Shown here: one piece after another, positions 2,305-27,721 of the stretch
How the letters are laid out: every line of letters begins with the position of its first letter
How positions within the stretch are numbered: the stretch's first letter is position 1
Source of the DNA: Bacillota bacterium
GTDB lineage: Bacteria; Bacillota; Sulfobacillia; Sulfobacillales; Sulfobacillaceae
Direction: 5' to 3'
Assembly: GCA_021841025.1 (NCBI GenBank)
Contig: JAKBWA010000045.1
Span: 1 to 35,484 of the forward strand
Length of the DNA stretch: 35,484 nucleotides
Notes under the pieces: generated by a model
What the model was told of the DNA's origin: nothing
Seen by the model: the letters and a program-made list of their open reading frames with translations, nothing else
The model's database searches: none
Program-made: the position numbers and the translations under genes

Positions 2305-4434
2305 ATGCGAGTGTTTCACTCAGTGCTTAATTCCATTCGCTGGTCTTTTGCCCGAAAAATGCTTGCGGGCATGACCATAGGATTATTAGGAACCGCGACC
2401 ATACGATTTCTACCGCCGGTTTTGAACACCGTTGCCCAGCCCATTATTCCCGTGCCAGCGGTTACTGGTATTTCTGTCACCCCATCAATGTTTGGGGCCA
2501 ATGTGAGTGGGTGGGATCCATGGATGCTCAGTCCGTCAGGCGTATCTGCCATCAAGTCGATGGGATTCACTGTGCAGCAATTCCCCAATTGTCCTTGGAT
2601 CTATAACTGGTCCACGAATCAAAGTCTCAATGGCGGAAAATGGTATCCGATTCCCGTCTCCTTAAACCAATGGAGCCAGGAACTGACACAAACCCACAAT
2701 ACTGGACTTTATATCGTTCCTTATGGATTTAATCGCTCTGGTACCGGCGGGGCTACGGTTTCGAGTGTCCAGAATCTTACAGAATACATTGTTCAGCATC
2801 ATGAGCCCATCTCCGCCATGGTCATCGGTTCCGAGCAATACGGAAGTTGGGCTCAAAATCTTCACCATCGGCAAACTGCGTTGCGCTATGCGCAACTGTC
2901 CGTGAAAATGGCTCAAGCCATTCACGCTATTGATCCGGCGATGAAAGTGGGCGTCGATTATGAGTTGCCCGCTAATATTACTCAGGCTGACTTTAAGAGT
3001 ACATTATGGAATAAAACCGTTATTTCCATGACCGCCCCTTACGTTCAGTTCGTCAGCGTTCACATCTATCCCTTGAATCAGGTGCAATCCAATGTTTCGT
3101 TGCTCCAAAGTTTGTACGCCGAATTGGCATCCGATATGCGTTACGTCAACCAGCAAGTCCAACAGTTCAGCGGGAGCTCTGGGAATCACCTCGCGCTCTG
3201 GGTCACGGAGTTCAACCCTTATGGGCTGGAAAGTGCTCAAAGTGTCCAACCCGTCTTCGGGGCCGCGTTGGTGCAAAGCTATCTGGAAATGATGAGTTTG
3301 GGCGCCAAGCAAGTGGATTGGTGGGCAATGTACGGAGACGCCCACATTCCGCAGTCACCGGGGAGTATTGCCACCAATACACCTTTGGCAACCGGTTCGC
3401 AGGCCACTTTTGCCAGCAACGGGTTGGCTAGCGAAGCGATTGCCCCGCAGCCGCAGCCCGAGAATAGTCTGTATTCTACGGGTGTTGCTTACAGGCAGAT
3501 GATGCAGTTAATCGGGCGTGGGGCGACGCTCTTCGTCGATTCACCGCTTTATCACACGTATCATGTTTTTGCGGCACGCATTCGGCACCAAAACTCGGAA
3601 GACTGGATTGTCATCAATGACAGCCATCATACAGCCACTGTGACGGTGTCAGGACAACAACACTCTCTTGCTTCGGCGGCTATGACCATATTCTCTGGTG
3701 TTCTCCCATCGTCCACTCCGCAAGTGTCGGGTGTTCCTGTTCATTCGCCCACAATTCTTACCAGCGCCCAGTGGAACGCTCATACCCACCAGTTAACCAT
3801 CACGGGCCAAGGATTTGGTGTGACACCGTCATCCGGTTCTCCAGCTCCCGGACAAGGGATTGACCAATCCCGGCTGATGGTGACTGATAACACGAGTACA
3901 GCAAACTACGGATGGGCTTTTCCCGGGGTAAACACCGATTGGTACGGGATCACCCCTGTGACATGGTCTAACACGTCCATTGTTCTAAAACTCGATGGAC
4001 CGATGCCGAATTCCGGCGACTCGCTCCATGTGAGCTGGTGGAACCCTATCGGCTTCATGGATGTTCCAACTCATCAAATTCCTGTCAGGTGGATTCCGTC
4101 GTCTCCGATACAGCCGGTAGCCTCGATTGCCATATCCAGCGCCACATACTCGCCGACCACGCGTATATTAACAATATTGGGCAATAATCTGGGCAGTTTG
4201 CCCCAAACTGTAGCCGCACGCGGAGGAGGTTATGACCAGGAAGATTTTGCGATCTTAATTCGGGGATCCAACATTCAGTACGGATACGAGGGTAACAACG
4301 ACTGGTATGGCGTGGTGATCAAGCAATGGACCTCGTCGAAGATTGTTGCCGAATTAGTTACGCCACCTGCGGCCGGTCAACCCGTACAAGTGACGTGGAT
4401 AGCCACTAACCAGAGTATCATTGCCTCGTCCTGA
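2305..4434 (+). CDS. Secreted or anchored clan GH-A-like glycosidase with two C-terminal IPT/TIG-like repeats
   Basis: A 709-residue exported protein. Residues 17-35 form a hydrophobic export signal or anchor after a basic N-terminus. Residues about 55-400 look like a (beta/alpha)8 glycosidase of clan GH-A (arabinofuranosidase/GH39-like): candidate acid/base Glu177 in GSEQYG, VHIYP at 252-256, candidate nucleophile Glu302 in WVTEFN. Residues about 405-465 resemble the beta-sandwich that often follows such barrels. Two related modules follow (about 487-579 and 612-700), each with LTI-type strands, a DWYG motif (545-548, 666-669) and a following Trp, like IPT/TIG immunoglobulin-like folds. The usual Asn before the acid/base Glu is Ser176. 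The start has AGGGAG about 10 bases upstream. A cyclic di-GMP riboswitch sits in the leader, so a role in remodelling exopolysaccharide is likely; the substrate is unknown. Confidence 0.7.
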   Translation: MRVFHSVLNSIRWSFARKMLAGMTIGLLGTATIRFLPPVLNTVAQPIIPVPAVTGISVTPSMFGANVSGWDPWMLSPSGVSAIKSMGFTVQQFPNCPWIYNWSTNQSLNGGKWYPIPVSLNQWSQELTQTHNTGLYIVPYGFNRSGTGGATVSSVQNLTEYIVQHHEPISAMVIGSEQYGSWAQNLHHRQTALRYAQLSVKMAQAIHAIDPAMKVGVDYELPANITQADFKSTLWNKTVISMTAPYVQFVSVHIYPLNQVQSNVSLLQSLYAELASDMRYVNQQVQQFSGSSGNHLALWVTEFNPYGLESAQSVQPVFGAALVQSYLEMMSLGAKQVDWWAMYGDAHIPQSPGSIATNTPLATGSQATFASNGLASEAIAPQPQPENSLYSTGVAYRQMMQLIGRGATLFVDSPLYHTYHVFAARIRHQNSEDWIVINDSHHTATVTVSGQQHSLASAAMTIFSGVLPSSTPQVSGVPVHSPTILTSAQWNAHTHQLTITGQGFGVTPSSGSPAPGQGIDQSRLMVTDNTSTANYGWAFPGVNTDWYGITPVTWSNTSIVLKLDGPMPNSGDSLHVSWWNPIGFMDVPTHQIPVRWIPSSPIQPVASIAISSATYSPTTRILTILGNNLGSLPQTVAARGGGYDQEDFAILIRGSNIQYGYEGNNDWYGVVIKQWTSSKIVAELVTPPAAGQPVQVTWIATNQSIIASS

Positions 4435-4817: not shown

Positions 4818-7025
4818 TTAACGGCCTCCCTCCCGACTAACAGCACTTGTTAATTTCGTTGGTCCAGCAAGTTTGTTCCAGTCGACTAACCCATGTTTGG
4901 TCTTTTCCCAGTGCGAGGGCCGGGTAACAAGCTGGATGAGAGCTTTCCACGAGGCTAGGGACATCATGCTCCAGTAAATCGGGGTGAGGATCGTGTAAGG
5001 CACGAGATCCCAGTGCCCGCGTTTGGCGGCACCCACACTATTGAGATAGGTGAAGGCGAAATTGCCCGCTAAGAGGTTCATCATCCCGAGATAGTAAATA
5101 CCGGGCGGGAATAGGTGCGGGATGATGCCCCAGTGGGTCATAAACCACAGTGAGGTGATAAACCAGTACAAAGGATTTAAGATAAACATTAAGGGAGTGC
5201 CTAAAATGGCCAGTTGGAAACCCCAGAAACCCTTACGTCCTAACTGCCGGCGGAGCTGAAGAGGATGGCGCATGTGCACGAGCCAGGTTTGCAAGTAACC
5301 CTTAATCCAGCGGGAGCGCTGTCTGATCCAGTTGACGAATTCGGAGTTGGCTTCCTCGTAAGTGATTGAATCAATGACTGCCGTCCGGTATCCAGCCTTG
5401 TGTAAACGAATTCCCAGATCGGCGTCTTCGGTGACGTTGTACGGATCCCAGGCTCCGATTTCTTTAAGCACCCGGGTGCGGAAGTGATTGGAGGTTCCAC
5501 CCAGTGGGATCGGCATGCCCGCGGCATGGAGGGCGGGGAGGAGCAAATCAAACCAGGCGCCGTATTCCGCCGTGAACCACCGGGTTAGAAGGTTTTGCCC
5601 TGCATTAAAATAGGATAACTTGGCTTGGACGCAGCCAAGGCGACTATCGCTTTGCTGAAAAGCCAGCAGCGCTTTCTTGAGTTGGGATGGATCAGGCAGG
5701 TCTTCGGCGTCATAGATTGTAATAAATTCTCCTTGGGCTCGTTGCAGTCCAAAGTTGCAGGCCTTGGGCTTGGTTCGGGGATCGGATACCGGAACCACCA
5801 CGATTTCGACAAAATGAGGAAGATGTGCCTGTCGGGCGGCGGTAATGGTTTCTACATCATCGTCTTCCAACAAAAGTTTGACATCGAGACGATCCGGAGG
5901 ATAATCCAGTTGTTGCAAGGCCTGAGCCATAACCGGAAGCACGGAGGCTTCATCGCGTGCCGGGATCAAAATGGTATACATGGGAAGATCCGAGTCCTTA
6001 AGCTGTTGCAAATCTTCCGGAGTAAAGCTGAGGTCATTGTTGGATTTTGTGCCTTTGTTAATAATCCACAACCGATGAACGACTAAAATGGCGTAACACA
6101 GAATCAATAGGCTGCTTGTCACCGACAATGCCGTTACGGGATGCCATATCGTGACGACCGCCAAAAACAGGATGGTGAGGACAAGGGCGAGAGTTTGTCT
6201 AGGGGTCAGAGTCCGGATGGCGGAGTTGTCCGGACTCGTGGTGAAAAGATGCGAGCGGCTTATTGTCAGATCTTGTTCCTGATAGTGGCGGGCCAGTTGG
6301 GCGGCAATGTCCCTTTGTCCCGTTACCGTGACGGTTATGCGTTTGGCGGTTTTTGCTCCTAGGGACATGGGCCCTCGGTTGTCAAAGGGATTGGCGACAG
6401 CGACTACGATTTCCTTTAACGTATCGCTGACGGGGACCATGGCATATTGTCTCCATTCATCTTTCGTCATCAGTGACCAAATGGCATTGAGAGTATGATC
6501 ATCATGAGACGGATTGTCTAGCAGATTTGTTACGGGTATGCTTGTTTGTTCGCCCAGCACGTTTGCCACCTGCCAGGAATTTAGGGCTTTGATCGAGAGG
6601 CAGATTTGCCCGAGTGTACCCCCTTGCCGATTTTGAATTTCGAGAGCGCGGTTCAGCAGATGAGGACTCAGACCATATTTGTTGACCGCGATATCGCCGA
6701 AGAGTGGCCGATTGTCGCCAGGGGAACCGTAAACCTTCCATTGGGCTACCAGTAGGTTCGCCAGAACTGTTCGGTAGATACGAACGGGGCCTAAACGATC
6801 GAGCAGGGCCCAGGCTGCAGGGGAAAGGGGTTCGGCCGCAGCGACCCACAAGCAGCCATCTTCTCGGCGAAAGGGCAGAATCCCGGCATCTCGGGCCTGA
6901 TCTGGTTTTAGTAAGAATGCTGCGGAGAGGTCAATGTCTTCGACAGCGGTGCCCCGAGGATGATTGTCTGTGGCCAAGGTGATGGCGGGAACTTGACTCC
7001 AAAGTTCTATCGGACTAACACTCAC
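4818..7025 (-). CDS. Membrane GT2 polysaccharide synthase with N-terminal MshEN-type cyclic di-GMP-binding region
   Basis: A 735-residue fusion. Residues about 30-250 match the T2SSE_N/MshEN architecture: two copies of the A-x-LP...L-x-VA...P subdomain (about 32-105 and 178-248) flank two consecutive 24-residue-like MshEN motifs, LFGDIAV..G.....LNRALEIQ (108-131) and TLGQICLS...LNSWQVANVLGEQ (137-160). Two membrane helices follow (about 277-322), then a GT2 domain (about 348-590) with the nucleotide-sugar DAED (439-442), TED (532-534) and the RQRSRW acceptor motif (568-573) of processive synthases, then more membrane helices. MshEN motifs bind cyclic di-GMP in MshE and NfrB-type enzymes, so allosteric control of polymer synthesis is the likely design. 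The first motif has Pro-Leu-Phe-Gly instead of the usual Arg-Leu-Gly, so binding may be altered. The GTG start has GAGGGA about 7 bases upstream. It lies 153 bases after the exosortase gene. Confidence 0.85.
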   Translation of the reverse strand: MSVSPIELWSQVPAITLATDNHPRGTAVEDIDLSAAFLLKPDQARDAGILPFRREDGCLWVAAAEPLSPAAWALLDRLGPVRIYRTVLANLLVAQWKVYGSPGDNRPLFGDIAVNKYGLSPHLLNRALEIQNRQGGTLGQICLSIKALNSWQVANVLGEQTSIPVTNLLDNPSHDDHTLNAIWSLMTKDEWRQYAMVPVSDTLKEIVVAVANPFDNRGPMSLGAKTAKRITVTVTGQRDIAAQLARHYQEQDLTISRSHLFTTSPDNSAIRTLTPRQTLALVLTILFLAVVTIWHPVTALSVTSSLLILCYAILVVHRLWIINKGTKSNNDLSFTPEDLQQLKDSDLPMYTILIPARDEASVLPVMAQALQQLDYPPDRLDVKLLLEDDDVETITAARQAHLPHFVEIVVVPVSDPRTKPKACNFGLQRAQGEFITIYDAEDLPDPSQLKKALLAFQQSDSRLGCVQAKLSYFNAGQNLLTRWFTAEYGAWFDLLLPALHAAGMPIPLGGTSNHFRTRVLKEIGAWDPYNVTEDADLGIRLHKAGYRTAVIDSITYEEANSEFVNWIRQRSRWIKGYLQTWLVHMRHPLQLRRQLGRKGFWGFQLAILGTPLMFILNPLYWFITSLWFMTHWGIIPHLFPPGIYYLGMMNLLAGNFAFTYLNSVGAAKRGHWDLVPYTILTPIYWSMMSLASWKALIQLVTRPSHWEKTKHGLVDWNKLAGPTKLTSAVSREGGR

Positions 7026-7178
7026 GAGGATTCCCTCATTTCGTTAATTTTTAGAGATCCTGCGACAGCGCAAGACCGGCGGATTGCCAAATGTTTGACA
7101 ACCTACATGACCCCGTACGCCAATGAAGAGAGGTGATGGGTCTGAATGATCTGAAACCATCTCACATCGTGAAATGTG

Positions 7179-8810
7179 TTACGTTTGTGCCGGAGTTTTG
7201 AGGCTTTGGTGAAAAATTTTCCGGGCAATAGCAATCAAAGTGGTGCGTGTTTTCAACAGTGTGGGGCTCCAATGGCCCTGGGAAGCTGGTGCCACCATGG
7301 ATTGAACCACTGACAACGGTTCCATGGACGACTGGGTGCCGAATCCCTTGGGGAGAGAAGGCTTGTTCCCGGGAAACGCCGCAATTGACCAGCGCATATA
7401 TCGAATGTGCCCGTGCACGGTGACCGCATCACTCCATTCGATATCCACATAGGTTGAGCGGGCGCCTCCGACATAATTTGGGGGCAGTGTAACGCCGTAA
7501 GCGGTGGCAATGACCCCGGGTACTAACTGAAATGATTGTACGGCGCTCAAAGAGTCACCATGGTACAAAAGACAGGCATGAAATCCGTACGTCGCCAGTT
7601 TGGTGGCGGACGGCGTACTCCACATCTCGACCAATGCTTGACCGGTCCCTGATTGCATGGAGTACATATCGGCTTGAGTGGCCGAACCTAAACCCAAAAC
7701 CGAGGATTCGTTGGCGTAATAGACTGGGGTTTGGATAAATGCTGTCAATCGTGGCAGAAAGGTTCGGGGGTTAAAAACCGGTACGGACGATGGATTGCCG
7801 AAAGATCCCTCCGGCAGGGAGAACAGTGGCCACAGCAGCAAAAAGATGATTCCGGCCAAAATCACCGCACTTCCCATTCGCCCCCACTCCGGTTTTCTGA
7901 GATGAACGGCGGAAGATACGGGTGGAATCGTCAAGCCAAAGGGCCGGCACAATAGCATAAGAGCTGCCGCCAGAATGGCAAACAGCAAAAAACCAAGAAC
8001 GGGATGAATGTAGGAAAAAGTGATGCCAGGACCTATGATGTGGACCGAAAGAACGATAACAGCCAGACGAATCCAATTAATAATGAGAGCTCCGATGAGT
8101 GCAATGAGGCTAATTAGAATTTTGTTGCGGAGACTTCCTTTGAAGGCGAACCACAAAACCGGAATCACAATAGCCGAACCCAACAGGCTGTCCGCTCCGC
8201 TGCAAGCCTGAGCCACAACGACCAAAACGGGACGGCTGTGGTACCAAACGGAGAAGGTTCCGGCCGGCAAAGAGGGGGCCAGCCACTGAACATGATGAGA
8301 AAGAAAGGTCAAAACGCCTACGGCCCAGTGGACCAGCACATTTTGGGTGGCGTTGGCCAGAGCTTGAAAAATGGGTGGCCAGACCAACAGTAGATAGGTT
8401 AGAGGAGCCAGAATAGCTCTTGTGGCTGCCAAGCCCCAAAATAGCCAACTCATCGCTAAAATCCAAAATGGCCATAACAACAAACCGGCATGGTTGTGAA
8501 CGAAGAGAGCCGGCCACCTTTCAGGCGCTAAAACCAGTGCCGTTCCGGTAATGATGGCCAGCATGCCTCCCAATATCAGGTTGATCTCGCCGTCGTCCGG
8601 TTGCAGAGGATCGCCAGAAAGGATATTCCATAGGGCCCATCCTAATGCAATAATCGGAATCCAGATGAGGTCGGCAATCGGTGTGTCAGCCAGCAAATTG
8701 TTCCATAAGGGACTGGCATAGGCCAGAAGCGGAACGACAGAAACGATCATCCATAATATCCAATATGCCGACAGTCGAGTCATGACGCCGGATTTTCCGA
8801 TATCAGTCAC
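7179..8810 (-). CDS. Exosortase/archaeosortase-family transpeptidase with a C-terminal extracytoplasmic domain
   Basis: A 543-residue polytopic protein. The exosortase core spans about residues 15-290 with the full catalytic set: Cys203 in ACSGADSL, Arg248 in NWIRLA and His269 in YIHPVLG, each next to a membrane helix. Exosortases cleave C-terminal PEP-CTERM-type tails of exported proteins and are typically found with exopolysaccharide genes. After another helix (about 308-325) comes a roughly 200-residue soluble region with an HACLLYHG segment that weakly recalls the EpsI-type domain fused to or encoded beside some exosortases. The GTG start has GAGGAGG about 7 bases upstream. The gene lies directly downstream of a gene for a small protein with a matching sorting tail and upstream of the GT2 synthase, the expected context. 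The length exceeds that of most exosortases because of the C-terminal domain. Confidence 0.88.
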   Translation of the reverse strand: MTDIGKSGVMTRLSAYWILWMIVSVVPLLAYASPLWNNLLADTPIADLIWIPIIALGWALWNILSGDPLQPDDGEINLILGGMLAIITGTALVLAPERWPALFVHNHAGLLLWPFWILAMSWLFWGLAATRAILAPLTYLLLVWPPIFQALANATQNVLVHWAVGVLTFLSHHVQWLAPSLPAGTFSVWYHSRPVLVVVAQACSGADSLLGSAIVIPVLWFAFKGSLRNKILISLIALIGALIINWIRLAVIVLSVHIIGPGITFSYIHPVLGFLLFAILAAALMLLCRPFGLTIPPVSSAVHLRKPEWGRMGSAVILAGIIFLLLWPLFSLPEGSFGNPSSVPVFNPRTFLPRLTAFIQTPVYYANESSVLGLGSATQADMYSMQSGTGQALVEMWSTPSATKLATYGFHACLLYHGDSLSAVQSFQLVPGVIATAYGVTLPPNYVGGARSTYVDIEWSDAVTVHGHIRYMRWSIAAFPGNKPSLPKGFGTQSSMEPLSVVQSMVAPASQGHWSPTLLKTRTTLIAIARKIFHQSLKTPAQT

Positions 8811-9011
8811 GCCAAGTCCTCCTCTAAGACACTATGCCTAACATTTGAGTCCATGCTATGGCAAGGCACTGCCCTCCGACAGTCCCGCTGACGGTCTCAA
8901 GCTGGGTATCAAGGAGAGATAGCGTGTTTGTTTCGTGAACGCCACTGCGAAGGACAAAAGCAAGAAGCCAGGCCCAGGCCAGGTGCCAAGCGCACGGCGG
9001 GGAACGCATTG

Positions 9012-9052
9012 AAAAAGAAAAGCCCGCGAATCTCAATGATTTCGCAGGCCTT
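9012..9052 (-). terminator. Rho-independent terminator after the exosortase-substrate gene
   Basis: Read on the minus strand, a stem of GCCTGCGAAATC with a GATTCGCGGGC partner and a four-base loop is followed by TTTTCTTTTT. It is placed 18 bases after the stop of the sorting-tail protein, which separates that highly expressible gene from the exosortase transcript. Confidence 0.85.
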
Positions 9053-9069
9053 GGAAGGGGGCGGGATAT

Positions 9070-9543
9070 CTAGGTGCGAGCGGCACGACGCTTTATGGAT
9101 ATCCCCAAAGGAATCAATAACAAAAGAGGCAATCCGGCCGCCAAAGGGACTTCGGGCAGCTGGCCGCTGGCAAAGCCCGATTCGGACATTTCCACCTCGG
9201 TGTTCGTCCACGTGTCGCCTTGGGGCAATGTGATATTGGTGGTATATTGGCCAGCCTTCGTCACCTGACCGGAACTCTTGGGAAGCAGTGTGGTGTTCGA
9301 CGGGTTGGTTTTGGGTGCCGCATATACAGAAACGTATTGCCCCACCGCCAAACCTGACCAAGTCCATGTGGCCGTACCCTGCGTTGCGCTCGTCTCGGTA
9401 ATGCTAATGGATCCGTTACCGCCATTCGCACTACGGACCATTTCCGTCGCTGTGGCTGCCATGGACGATCCACTCATGCCCAGCATTAGAGCGCCGGTAA
9501 CTCCTAAGGCTCCCACAGCACGCCAAATTGCAGTCGATTTCAT
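9070..9543 (-). CDS. Small secreted protein with PEP-CTERM-like C-terminal sorting signal (probable exosortase substrate)
   Basis: A 157-residue protein. Residues 1-30 form a signal peptide ending in an Ala-rich cleavage region (SSMAATA). Residues about 35-125 are Thr/Ser/Gly-rich with alternating hydrophobic residues, as in a beta-sandwich. The C-terminal 29 residues are a tripartite sorting tail: LPEVPLA (129-135), a hydrophobic helix (LPLLLLIPLGI) and a basic end (KRRAAR). This is the layout recognised by exosortases. The start at 9543 is preferred over the ATG at 9561 because AAAGGA lies 9 bases before it. The gene has its own terminator, and the exosortase gene follows 260 bases downstream. 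I recognise no family for the mature domain; it may be an abundant surface or matrix protein. Confidence 0.8.
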   Translation of the reverse strand: MKSTAIWRAVGALGVTGALMLGMSGSSMAATATEMVRSANGGNGSISITETSATQGTATWTWSGLAVGQYVSVYAAPKTNPSNTTLLPKSSGQVTKAGQYTTNITLPQGDTWTNTEVEMSESGFASGQLPEVPLAAGLPLLLLIPLGISIKRRAART

Positions 9544-9822
9544 CGAGATCGTTCCTTTCATGAGCCTATTCGATTAATGCACGAGCCACCCAGACCCTCT
9601 ATGGTGACAAGCACACTATAAGGACCGATTGCACAGTTGGCAGTGCCGCAGATGGTGTCAAATGAGGTCTCGCATTAATCGTGATCCACTTCAGGTTATC
9701 ACCAAAATAGAGACCTCAAGTGAGACTCTCTGTCTGTCGGCGCTTTGCTATACTGCTAGAAAAGTCTCGGCTCAGCAAAATTCCCGGGGACGGGGTCAGA
9801 ACATCAGGAAGGACGTCGTAAT
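9544..9822. promoter_or_regulatory. Divergent promoter region with a long inverted repeat
   Basis: The 279 bases separate the divergent sorting-tail gene and the GGDEF-EAL gene. A perfect 9-base inverted repeat, TGAGGTCTC (9663-9671) and GAGACCTCA (9710-9718), encloses an inner GTGAT/ATCAC pair. Toward the plus strand there is an extended -10 box, TGCTATACT (9746-9754). Toward the minus strand there is a TTGACA-like box (complement of 9656-9661) and a TATAGT-like box near 9615-9620, but their spacing does not fit one promoter. The repeat is a candidate operator or RNA structure serving both genes. Confidence 0.45.
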
Positions 9823-11580
9823 ATGTTGTCGTTCAAATCGACGGTGTTAACACAGACACCAGAAAGTGGGCTGGCGTTACGGTTTTGCTGCTGGTCGGAG
9901 AAAGATGCCGAACAGATGGCAGAGATGCCCTGGCAGGCCATTATGGACCGAGCTTTGGCAGGGCCTGGCGCCATGTTGAACCGAATCGGCCAAACCAAGG
10001 ATACGGTTAACCTGCCATCAGGTGCTGATGAGGCCGCCTTGGCGGCTGTCCGCGAGTTGTGCGAGCGGATCCAGAAGAATCCCGAACCCCAGTGGATGCG
10101 ACTTTCCCACGAACCAGAGGAAGGCACGTCCCGCTATGCACGGGATTTTCCCAGTGATGGCAATTTCAGCGGATATTGGCTAATGATTGCCGCCATCATT
10201 GACGAGTTGTTCGAATCCCAAACATCCGCGTCTGTTGTTCGGGAGTATCTAAAGACGGCTCTGAAACGGGTGCTGCTGGACGTTCACGTAAGCAGGGCAC
10301 AACATTTTACGGATTATGCCTTTCGTGACGTTGTCACGGCGTGCGCCAATCGTCTGGCCACACAGTTGCAACTGGACACGCTATTGGCTCAAAAGCACCC
10401 GTTTGTGTTGATTTCGGCCGATTTAGACGGATTTAAAGCGATCAATGACACATACGGTCACGCAGCTGGGGATGACGTCCTGAATACGGTGGCACAAAGG
10501 TGGCAGCGACTGATGCGCCAATCCGACTGGCTGGGGCGCTGGGGAGGCGATGAATTCGTGATGATTCTGTCCAACCCCTTGAGCACCGAGGCCGTTGTTC
10601 GTTTCGGGAACCGGATTCGTCAGACTTGTGAGGAACCCATCGTTCTGCCGCGATTCGGTGCTGTGCAGGTGTCGTCTTCTTATGGTTATGCGCGGTATCC
10701 GGAAGAAGGCCAAGACATGGCTCAAATTTTGTCGGTAGCCGACCAGAGGCTTTACACGATGAAACGATTTTTGGCATGCGGCATGGACCCGGCAGGGGCC
10801 GATGCCGGTGAGAGTGTGAAGTGGTCGGACCGTATTCGCCGAGCACTGGAAACAAATCGTATTGATGTGTACTACCAGCCGATTTTACGCAGCGATGTCA
10901 ATGTGCCCTTTCAATGGGAAGCTCTGGTTCGATACCGGGACAGGAATGGGGAAGTTCATTATCCGGCGGAGTTTTTGCCTGTTCTGCCCTCCGACGTGGT
11001 GCAGCAAATGGATCAGGCTGTTCTTCGACACGTCTTCGAAGATTTGAGCCGATGGCGCCTGCAAGATCACCGATGGACGGTGGCTATCAACGTTGACCCT
11101 GCCAGCTTGTCATCCGCCCGGTGGCAAGCGGATTTAATTCGGCTGCATCGGGACTTTCCTTTGGTGCAGTCGGAAGATATCACGTTCGAGATTCAGGAAT
11201 CTCAGAGAGTCGAAAGCCCTCACCTCCTGGACGCCTTTTATCGAATGCAGCAGCAGGGATATCAGATTGCACTGGATGATTTTGGCACAGGGGACAGTAC
11301 CTTGTCCCGATTGCAAAAGATGCCACTCAATACGATCAAAATTGATTCCACGGTGACTAGACAATGGCACTCAGATTCAGGACGAAGACTCATTCAGTCC
11401 ATCATTGGACTGGCTCGACCCATGGGTTTGGCTGTGGTTGCGGAAGGCGTGGAGAGCGCCGCACAACAAAACGTTTTGCGTCAGTGGGGCTGTGAGGCGG
11501 GGCAGGGCTGGTTTTACAGTGCCGCCATTCCCGCCGGGGACGTGGCAGGTTGGACGTTCGGCGGTGATTCGGGCCTGTGA
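9823..11580 (+). CDS. GGDEF-EAL cyclic di-GMP turnover protein
   Basis: A 585-residue soluble protein. Residues 1-165 form a domain I do not recognise. The GGDEF domain (about 180-315) has an intact GGDEF active site (241-245) and an intact RxxD inhibitory site (RQSD, 232-235), so diguanylate cyclase activity with product inhibition is possible. The EAL domain (about 335-575) keeps the residues needed for phosphodiesterase activity: EAL (366-368), Asn423, Glu456, DDFGTG (485-490), Lys506 in IKID, Glu541 in AEGVE and Gln561. Both halves therefore look competent; the net activity cannot be told from sequence. The start has AGGAAGGA about 9 bases upstream. It is divergent from the exosortase substrate gene and lies in a locus with a cyclic di-GMP riboswitch and an MshEN-type synthase, so it may set the local signal. 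Confidence 0.93.
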   Translation: MLSFKSTVLTQTPESGLALRFCCWSEKDAEQMAEMPWQAIMDRALAGPGAMLNRIGQTKDTVNLPSGADEAALAAVRELCERIQKNPEPQWMRLSHEPEEGTSRYARDFPSDGNFSGYWLMIAAIIDELFESQTSASVVREYLKTALKRVLLDVHVSRAQHFTDYAFRDVVTACANRLATQLQLDTLLAQKHPFVLISADLDGFKAINDTYGHAAGDDVLNTVAQRWQRLMRQSDWLGRWGGDEFVMILSNPLSTEAVVRFGNRIRQTCEEPIVLPRFGAVQVSSSYGYARYPEEGQDMAQILSVADQRLYTMKRFLACGMDPAGADAGESVKWSDRIRRALETNRIDVYYQPILRSDVNVPFQWEALVRYRDRNGEVHYPAEFLPVLPSDVVQQMDQAVLRHVFEDLSRWRLQDHRWTVAINVDPASLSSARWQADLIRLHRDFPLVQSEDITFEIQESQRVESPHLLDAFYRMQQQGYQIALDDFGTGDSTLSRLQKMPLNTIKIDSTVTRQWHSDSGRRLIQSIIGLARPMGLAVVAEGVESAAQQNVLRQWGCEAGQGWFYSAAIPAGDVAGWTFGGDSGL

Positions 11581-27471: not shown

Positions 27472-27483
27472 ACCGGTCAATAA

Positions 27484-27721
27484 CTCCCCACTTAAACTCT
27501 CACGAGTTTTGAAGTGGGAGCTTGCAAAAAAGCTCTCGTTGACTAGCCTCAGCACTTTGGTGCGACGTTGGCATCGTCACGACACCGGGGGATGCGCGTC
27601 CTAGTCCCTTGCTCTGTCCGTCCGTGGTTAAAAGTCCTGTGGAGTAGGGACGGTGCTGCGGACATCACAAGCGATGCCAACCTTGGCGAAGGACCATTCA
27701 CTCCGAAAGGAGAGAGACGCC
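27484..27721 (+). ncRNA. Putative omega-RNA of IscB
   Basis: The 238 bases between the left-end hairpin and the IscB start have no protein-like frame and are rich in self-complementary segments (for example 27484-27535). IscB proteins use a 5'-guide, 3'-scaffold RNA transcribed from exactly this position. If the boundary is right, the guide would be the flanking bases just left of 27484. The fold beyond the first hairpins is not worked out here. Confidence 0.6.

Follow-up and report, generated by a model that had tools for sequence, protein, structure and literature searches.

Introduction

The 2006 survey that defined the PEP-CTERM/EpsH system found it in outer-membrane bacteria only and in none of the Firmicutes (PMC1569441). 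EpsH carries the motif set C-x-G / N-x-x-R / H-x-x-x-G described by Haft, and in some EpsH proteins an EpsI region is fused to the C-terminus (PMC1569441). PEP-CTERM work has shown roles in cell-polysaccharide adhesion (PMC12188702). In Lactiplantibacillus, the exosortase XrtG, its Firmicu-CTERM partner and associated glycosyltransferases are already annotated, so an exosortase in a Firmicute is not in itself new (PMC12854382). In Haloferax, archaeosortase A couples cleavage with lipid attachment (PMC7157517).

Here, we analyzed contig C106 from an assembly totaling 3.39 Mb. This 35,484-nucleotide stretch of DNA (the window) carries an exosortase gene beside the gene of an exported protein with a C-terminal tag. 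A preliminary description had read the pair as a dedicated exosortase with one substrate in a probable Firmicute with a single membrane, suggesting a separate subtype. Sequence comparisons make it likely that the pair belongs to an exosortase-type system that sorts several surface proteins.

Host organism and cell envelope

The exosortase was 100% identical to that of PXYT01000023.1 from Sulfobacillus benefaciens AMDSBA1, and along its entire length the window matched a contig of the same strain (G006:C72) at 99.86% identity. The organism is therefore a Sulfobacillus (Bacillota), in agreement with the Firmicute that had been proposed to hold the exosortase and its C-terminally tagged substrate. 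Omp85/BamA was not found in four Sulfobacillaceae genomes, while seven control genomes were positive, so a single membrane is likely and a diderm host was rejected. The host is probably a monoderm, acid-loving Sulfobacillus, its envelope being judged by Omp85/BamA alone. The preliminary description would have been undone by a host that was diderm and carried the standard PEP-CTERM set; a check of part of this gave no sign of such a host.

The same assembly contains a contig (G000:C116; loci L003 and L151) on which much of the window recurs in synteny at 71-84% identity, including its own exosortase (79% identical) and its own substrate. Because the rest of the assembly lies near S. benefaciens, as seen for the window and for contig C92 (99.75% identity to G006 in a 4-kb comparison), C116 is more likely to have strayed in from a different Sulfobacillus than to be a paralogous locus.

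Organization of the locus

The features of the locus are collected in Table 1. In the exported protein, a signal peptide is followed by a mature part about 95 residues long and by a C-terminal sorting tail, and the C-terminus reads QLPEVPLAAGLPLLLLIPLGISIKRRAART. Considering that the inner ATG has the better ribosome-binding site, with AAAGGA upstream, the 157-residue form (9070-9543) is more probably correct than the 163-residue form. The mature part contains 31% Ser+Thr and no Cys and is predicted to be a beta-sandwich, for which a structure search returned only weak beta-sandwich matches. Between the substrate and exosortase genes, a hairpin is followed by CUUUUCUUUUUC.

Several details of the preliminary description could be compared directly with these results. 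The 157-residue exported protein ending in LPEVPLA, a hydrophobic helix and KRRAAR was recovered as described, as was the adjacent MshEN-GT2 synthase, which recurs in related loci. The strong terminator assigned to the substrate fared less evenly: the 65 nucleotides between the two genes fold at -18.8 kcal/mol (z -2.7), which supports it, but the hairpin was not listed by a simple consensus terminator scan. In a sigma-70/terminator scan of positions 6900-9900, matches were no more numerous than in shuffled sequences.

Table 1. Features of the window, with positions on the forward strand
Feature	Positions	Strand	Basis or remark
PMT/GT39-like membrane glycosyltransferase, 600 aa	240-2042	minus	profile; conserved neighbor
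c-di-GMP-I-GGC riboswitch (RF03167)	2104-2199	plus	ahead of glycosidase-like gene
Exported protein, 709 aa, weakly glycoside-hydrolase (GH79-like)	2305-4434	plus	E 0.0064, below cut-off
Membrane protein, 87 aa	4552-4815	minus	ORF; weakly conserved beside GT2 gene
MshEN-GT2 glycosyltransferase, 735 aa, processive-synthase-like	4818-7025	minus	profiles; conserved neighbor of exosortase
Exosortase, GTG start, 543 aa	7179-8810	minus	ORF, Pfam PF09721 and NCBIfam TIGR04178
Hairpin with U-rich tail, terminator-like, in the gap separating the substrate and exosortase genes	within 9005-9069	minus	fold
Tagged substrate, 163 aa	9070-9561	minus	ORF; alternative 157 aa from ATG at 9543
LPEVPxA-CTERM tail, GQLPEVPLAAGLPLLLLIPLGISIKRRAART	9073-9165	minus	tail profile
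GGDEF-EAL protein	9823-11580	plus	profile; neighbor in closer relatives
HEARO (HNH endonuclease-associated) RNA	27476-27701	plus	121 bits against gathering score 83

Membrane core and C-terminal domain of the exosortase

The exosortase matched PF09721 (E=2.4e-15, 57.1 bits against a cut-off of 25.7) in Pfam and TIGR04178 (45.1 bits against 23) in NCBIfam. Both scores exceed the curated cut-offs and place the protein in the exosortase/archaeosortase superfamily; PF09721 was likewise found in 24/24 homologues tested. Cys203, Arg248 and His269, which the preliminary description had singled out at the correct positions, were invariant in alignments of 24 and later of 35 homologues. They lie in C203-S-G205, N245-x-x-R248 and H269-x3-G273, all invariant in the 35 sequences, which reproduce the motif set of EpsH. 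In the predicted structure, this set is carried by successive membrane helices (residues 205-222, 227-258 and 261-288), and the membrane core with Cys203, Asn245/Arg248 and His269 spans approximately residues 15-325. No relative of solved structure was found by sequence, or by Foldseek at E<=0.001.

A separate extracytoplasmic domain was predicted with high confidence at approximately residues 345-540 (pLDDT 87), which bears out the extra C-terminal domain described earlier, while its distinctiveness had been overstated given the fused C-terminal domains of some EpsH proteins (PMC1569441). A Cys-x3-His-Gly motif in the region of residues 413-417 and Arg473 occur in all long homologues, with Cys413, His417, Gly418 and Arg473 invariant in 32/32 sequences having the domain. 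Scans of 24 exosortase members gave no match to the EpsI family in Pfam (E<=1) or in NCBIfam (E<=0.01), and the domain may still be remotely related to EpsI (TIGR02914). Its best structural neighbors were DcrB, Mog1 and PsbP, three proteins of one general fold (Z 7.9-8.5); these scores are borderline, as unrelated models reach an equal level, and we did not use them as proof. A role of the domain in the transfer step is speculation.

Shorter exosortases without the C-terminal domain occur in L130-L134 and in L025, L026 and L028. In L025, L026, L028 and L132, a small protein with an [LVT]PETPYA tail adjoins the short exosortase, a possible second tag subtype within the same order.

Conservation of the tail and its co-occurrence with the exosortase

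We built a profile from 32 tails, partly from loci beside exosortases, and searched it genome-wide in 61 related genomes. The tail of the window's substrate was found with E 1.9e-14, far beyond chance. Of 97 tail-bearing frames gathered, 85 were kept with a signal-peptide-like start, and these 85 proteins align only at their ends, being otherwise dissimilar. The commonest motif is QLPEVPWAA or QLPEVPYAA, and P136, P139 and P145, the prolines of PE-x-P and of the following L-P, are invariant among the tagged proteins.

With the tail counted as present at E<=1e-4, 21 of the 61 genomes had both tail and exosortase, 3 the tail only, 5 the exosortase only and 32 neither; the Fisher test, uncorrected for kinship, gave p = 1.4e-8, which overstates independence because the genomes are related. 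The tail without a detected exosortase was seen in G017, G023 and G024, which are drafts of 93-97% completeness, and in G024 the substrate lies at a contig end; G036 and G037 have an exosortase without a clear tail. Tail genes adjoin the exosortase even where the enzymes are only 33-42% identical. Of 398 genomes sampled evenly across the phylum, 10 matched the exosortase family and 4 carried the tail; these four were among the ten and belonged to the same class. Since the six other exosortase genomes carry no LPEVPxA tail, the tag is specific to this clade. A tripartite C-terminal tag is thus present on several exported proteins and co-occurs with the enzyme, as expected of an exosortase/CTERM system.

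The plain hydrophobic helix and basic residues of the tail would suffice for anchoring, and the tail could in principle be an uncut C-terminal membrane anchor, with the exosortase acting on something else. We regard this as improbable, since a pure anchor has no need of PE-x-P, while proteins with nothing else in common have kept PE.P.A, and only exosortase-bearing lineages carry the tail. It is still harder to see the tail as an LPXTG-like signal for a classical sortase. Both kinds of signal share a tripartite layout and an LPE start, the LPXTG model weakly matches 6 of the 85 tagged proteins (best E 0.01), and classical sortases are present in G006, G005 and G011. However, the LPE of the tail is not followed by Thr-Gly, the motif being LPEVP, and tail genes adjoin exosortase genes. 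The window's assembly is 97% complete and encodes four tagged proteins, but a search for a PF04203 sortase gave no hit in it; on this missing hit and the motif, the sortase reading was rejected.

Number of substrates

The number of substrates, in the window's assembly and in its relatives, rests on these profile searches. The genome-wide search that the preliminary description had called for found four tagged proteins in the window's assembly (E 1.7e-15 to 1.3e-6), the next hit (0.19) falling outside the set. Among relatives, a genome holds about 2-7 tagged proteins, mostly unlinked to the exosortase gene; most profile matches were unlinked although some tails in the profile came from beside exosortases. 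The claim of a dedicated exosortase with a single substrate is therefore wrong, given four tagged proteins here against six in S. benefaciens AMDSBA1. In the closest relatives (L101-L106), the gene directly beside the exosortase usually belongs to one substrate family, and in some distant genomes tandem exosortases each have their own tail gene (L118-L121), but a single exosortase faces six tails of the same motif in AMDSBA1 (G006) and five in the complete genome of S. thermotolerans Kr1 (G005), so that one dedicated substrate, with the other tagged proteins accidental or handled otherwise, is hardly credible and was rejected on the genome-wide tail search.

Gene neighborhood and c-di-GMP

We compared 36 named loci. 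The MshEN-GT2 gene is present nearby in most long-exosortase loci with enough flanking DNA, often together with a PMT/GT39-like gene; gene order and strand vary. In close relatives, the exosortase-substrate pair is flanked by a GGDEF-EAL gene, and the secreted glycosidase-like protein recurs among related loci. Motifs of processive synthases (DAED, TED and QRSRW) are present in the MshEN-GT2 protein. Its MshEN motif reads FGD/LGQ, and c-di-GMP binding is uncertain because the arginine of the usual RLG is lost.

In seven clusters, namely the window and L102, L109, L110, L115, L121 and L003, the glycosidase-like gene is preceded by a c-di-GMP-I riboswitch at a distance of 48-231 bases; in L104 and L108 a riboswitch lies near the locus end. 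Based on these predictions, the link of the locus to c-di-GMP is solid for the glycosidase-like gene alone and not for the exosortase operon. c-di-GMP probably coordinates the locus via the riboswitch and possibly via the MshEN domain.

In L118, L119, L120, L121 and L124, two or three exosortase genes are clustered, and several of these genes have a tail gene of their own. These clusters in distant relatives suggest duplication and specialization of enzyme-tag pairs.

Comparison with described systems

The profile check against known exosortase and archaeosortase subfamilies, another proposal of the preliminary description, assigned the enzyme to the superfamily and to no named subtype. No curated cut-off of an NCBIfam exosortase subtype was reached, including those of XrtA, XrtV and XrtG. 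The scores were 56.3 bits against 105.55 for the EpsH subfamily (TIGR02602), 38.8 against 208 for XrtA (TIGR03109), 29.3 against 102.75 for XrtG (TIGR03110) and 24.6 against 100 for archaeosortase C; the glycosyltransferase model of the XrtG system gave 30 against 364. A search of four genomes with Firmicu-CTERM (TIGR04145) returned nothing at E<=1, and XrtG/Firmicu-CTERM membership was ruled out by the curated cut-offs. The CTERM tag models of NCBIfam and Pfam (PEP, VPLPA, PEF, VPDSG, PExPT, MYXO and others) did not match the 85 tagged proteins consistently, at most 9 touching any one NCBIfam model (best E 0.0086) and Pfam behaving likewise. The separate subtype proposed earlier thus stands, as no curated enzyme or tag model fits. 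The rarity claimed for a Firmicute was right as to the presence of an exosortase and overstated as to novelty, given XrtG in Lactiplantibacillus (PMC12854382).

The Sulfobacillus system resembles PEP-CTERM/EpsH (XrtA and relatives, of diderms) in its exosortase core, its triad, its tripartite PE-x-P-like tag, its many dissimilar Sec-exported Ser/Thr-rich substrates and the exopolysaccharide-type glycosyltransferases nearby (PMC1569441). It differs in that the host is probably monoderm, the tag is LPEVP[WYL]A instead of VPEP, each genome has about 2-7 substrates and the C-terminal domain is not recognized as EpsI. With XrtG/Firmicu-CTERM of Lactobacillales and other Firmicutes, it shares a monoderm exosortase, a tagged neighbor and GT2 glycosyltransferases (PMC12854382), whereas the several substrates, the extra C-terminal domain and the c-di-GMP link set it apart. 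Archaeosortase A/PGF-CTERM of Haloferax volcanii serves as a model of how it may work, since there a Cys-dependent enzyme cleaves a tripartite tail and a lipid is attached, again in a cell with one membrane (PMC7157517); the sequence relation is only remote, the motif is different, and the lipid acceptor known there is a candidate here. Taken all together, the Sulfobacillus system is, by sequence, a new exosortase/CTERM subtype, multi-substrate and c-di-GMP-linked. In the literature searched, a multi-substrate PEP-CTERM-like exosortase with an LPEVPxA tag in Sulfobacillia appears to be undescribed.

Proposed mechanism

The cleavage and transfer steps of the proposed sorting system are modeled on archaeosortase A (PMC7157517) and on PEP-CTERM adhesion work (PMC12188702). 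Tagged proteins would be exported by Sec and would stall in the membrane through the C-terminal helix and basic tail. On the outer face, Cys203 of the exosortase, with Arg248 and His269, would cut near LPEVP[WYL]A and form a thioester, and the new C-terminus would be passed to a surface acceptor that carries an amine. The analogy with archaeosortase A, which acts in another single-membrane cell, makes a lipid the most likely acceptor, with a cell-wall or exopolysaccharide sugar as the second candidate. The PMT-like neighbor probably decorates the Ser/Thr-rich mature proteins, which probably act in adhesion or in the matrix. It is rather unlikely that the whole forms a c-di-GMP-coordinated monoderm pathway joining surface proteins to a lipid or local polysaccharide with the Cys413-x3-His417 domain acting in transfer.

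Significance

The acceptor of exosortase substrates is still an open question in the field. A probably monoderm, culturable Sulfobacillus removes export across the outer membrane and would make this question simpler to test; S. thermotolerans Kr1 combines one exosortase and five candidate substrates with a complete genome. A comparative study that included Sulfobacillus and covered three species occurring together reported the PEP-CTERM exosortase system for Leptospirillum alone (PMC5418355). LPEVPxA-CTERM provides a named tag for annotating the surface proteins of Sulfobacillus, a biomining genus.
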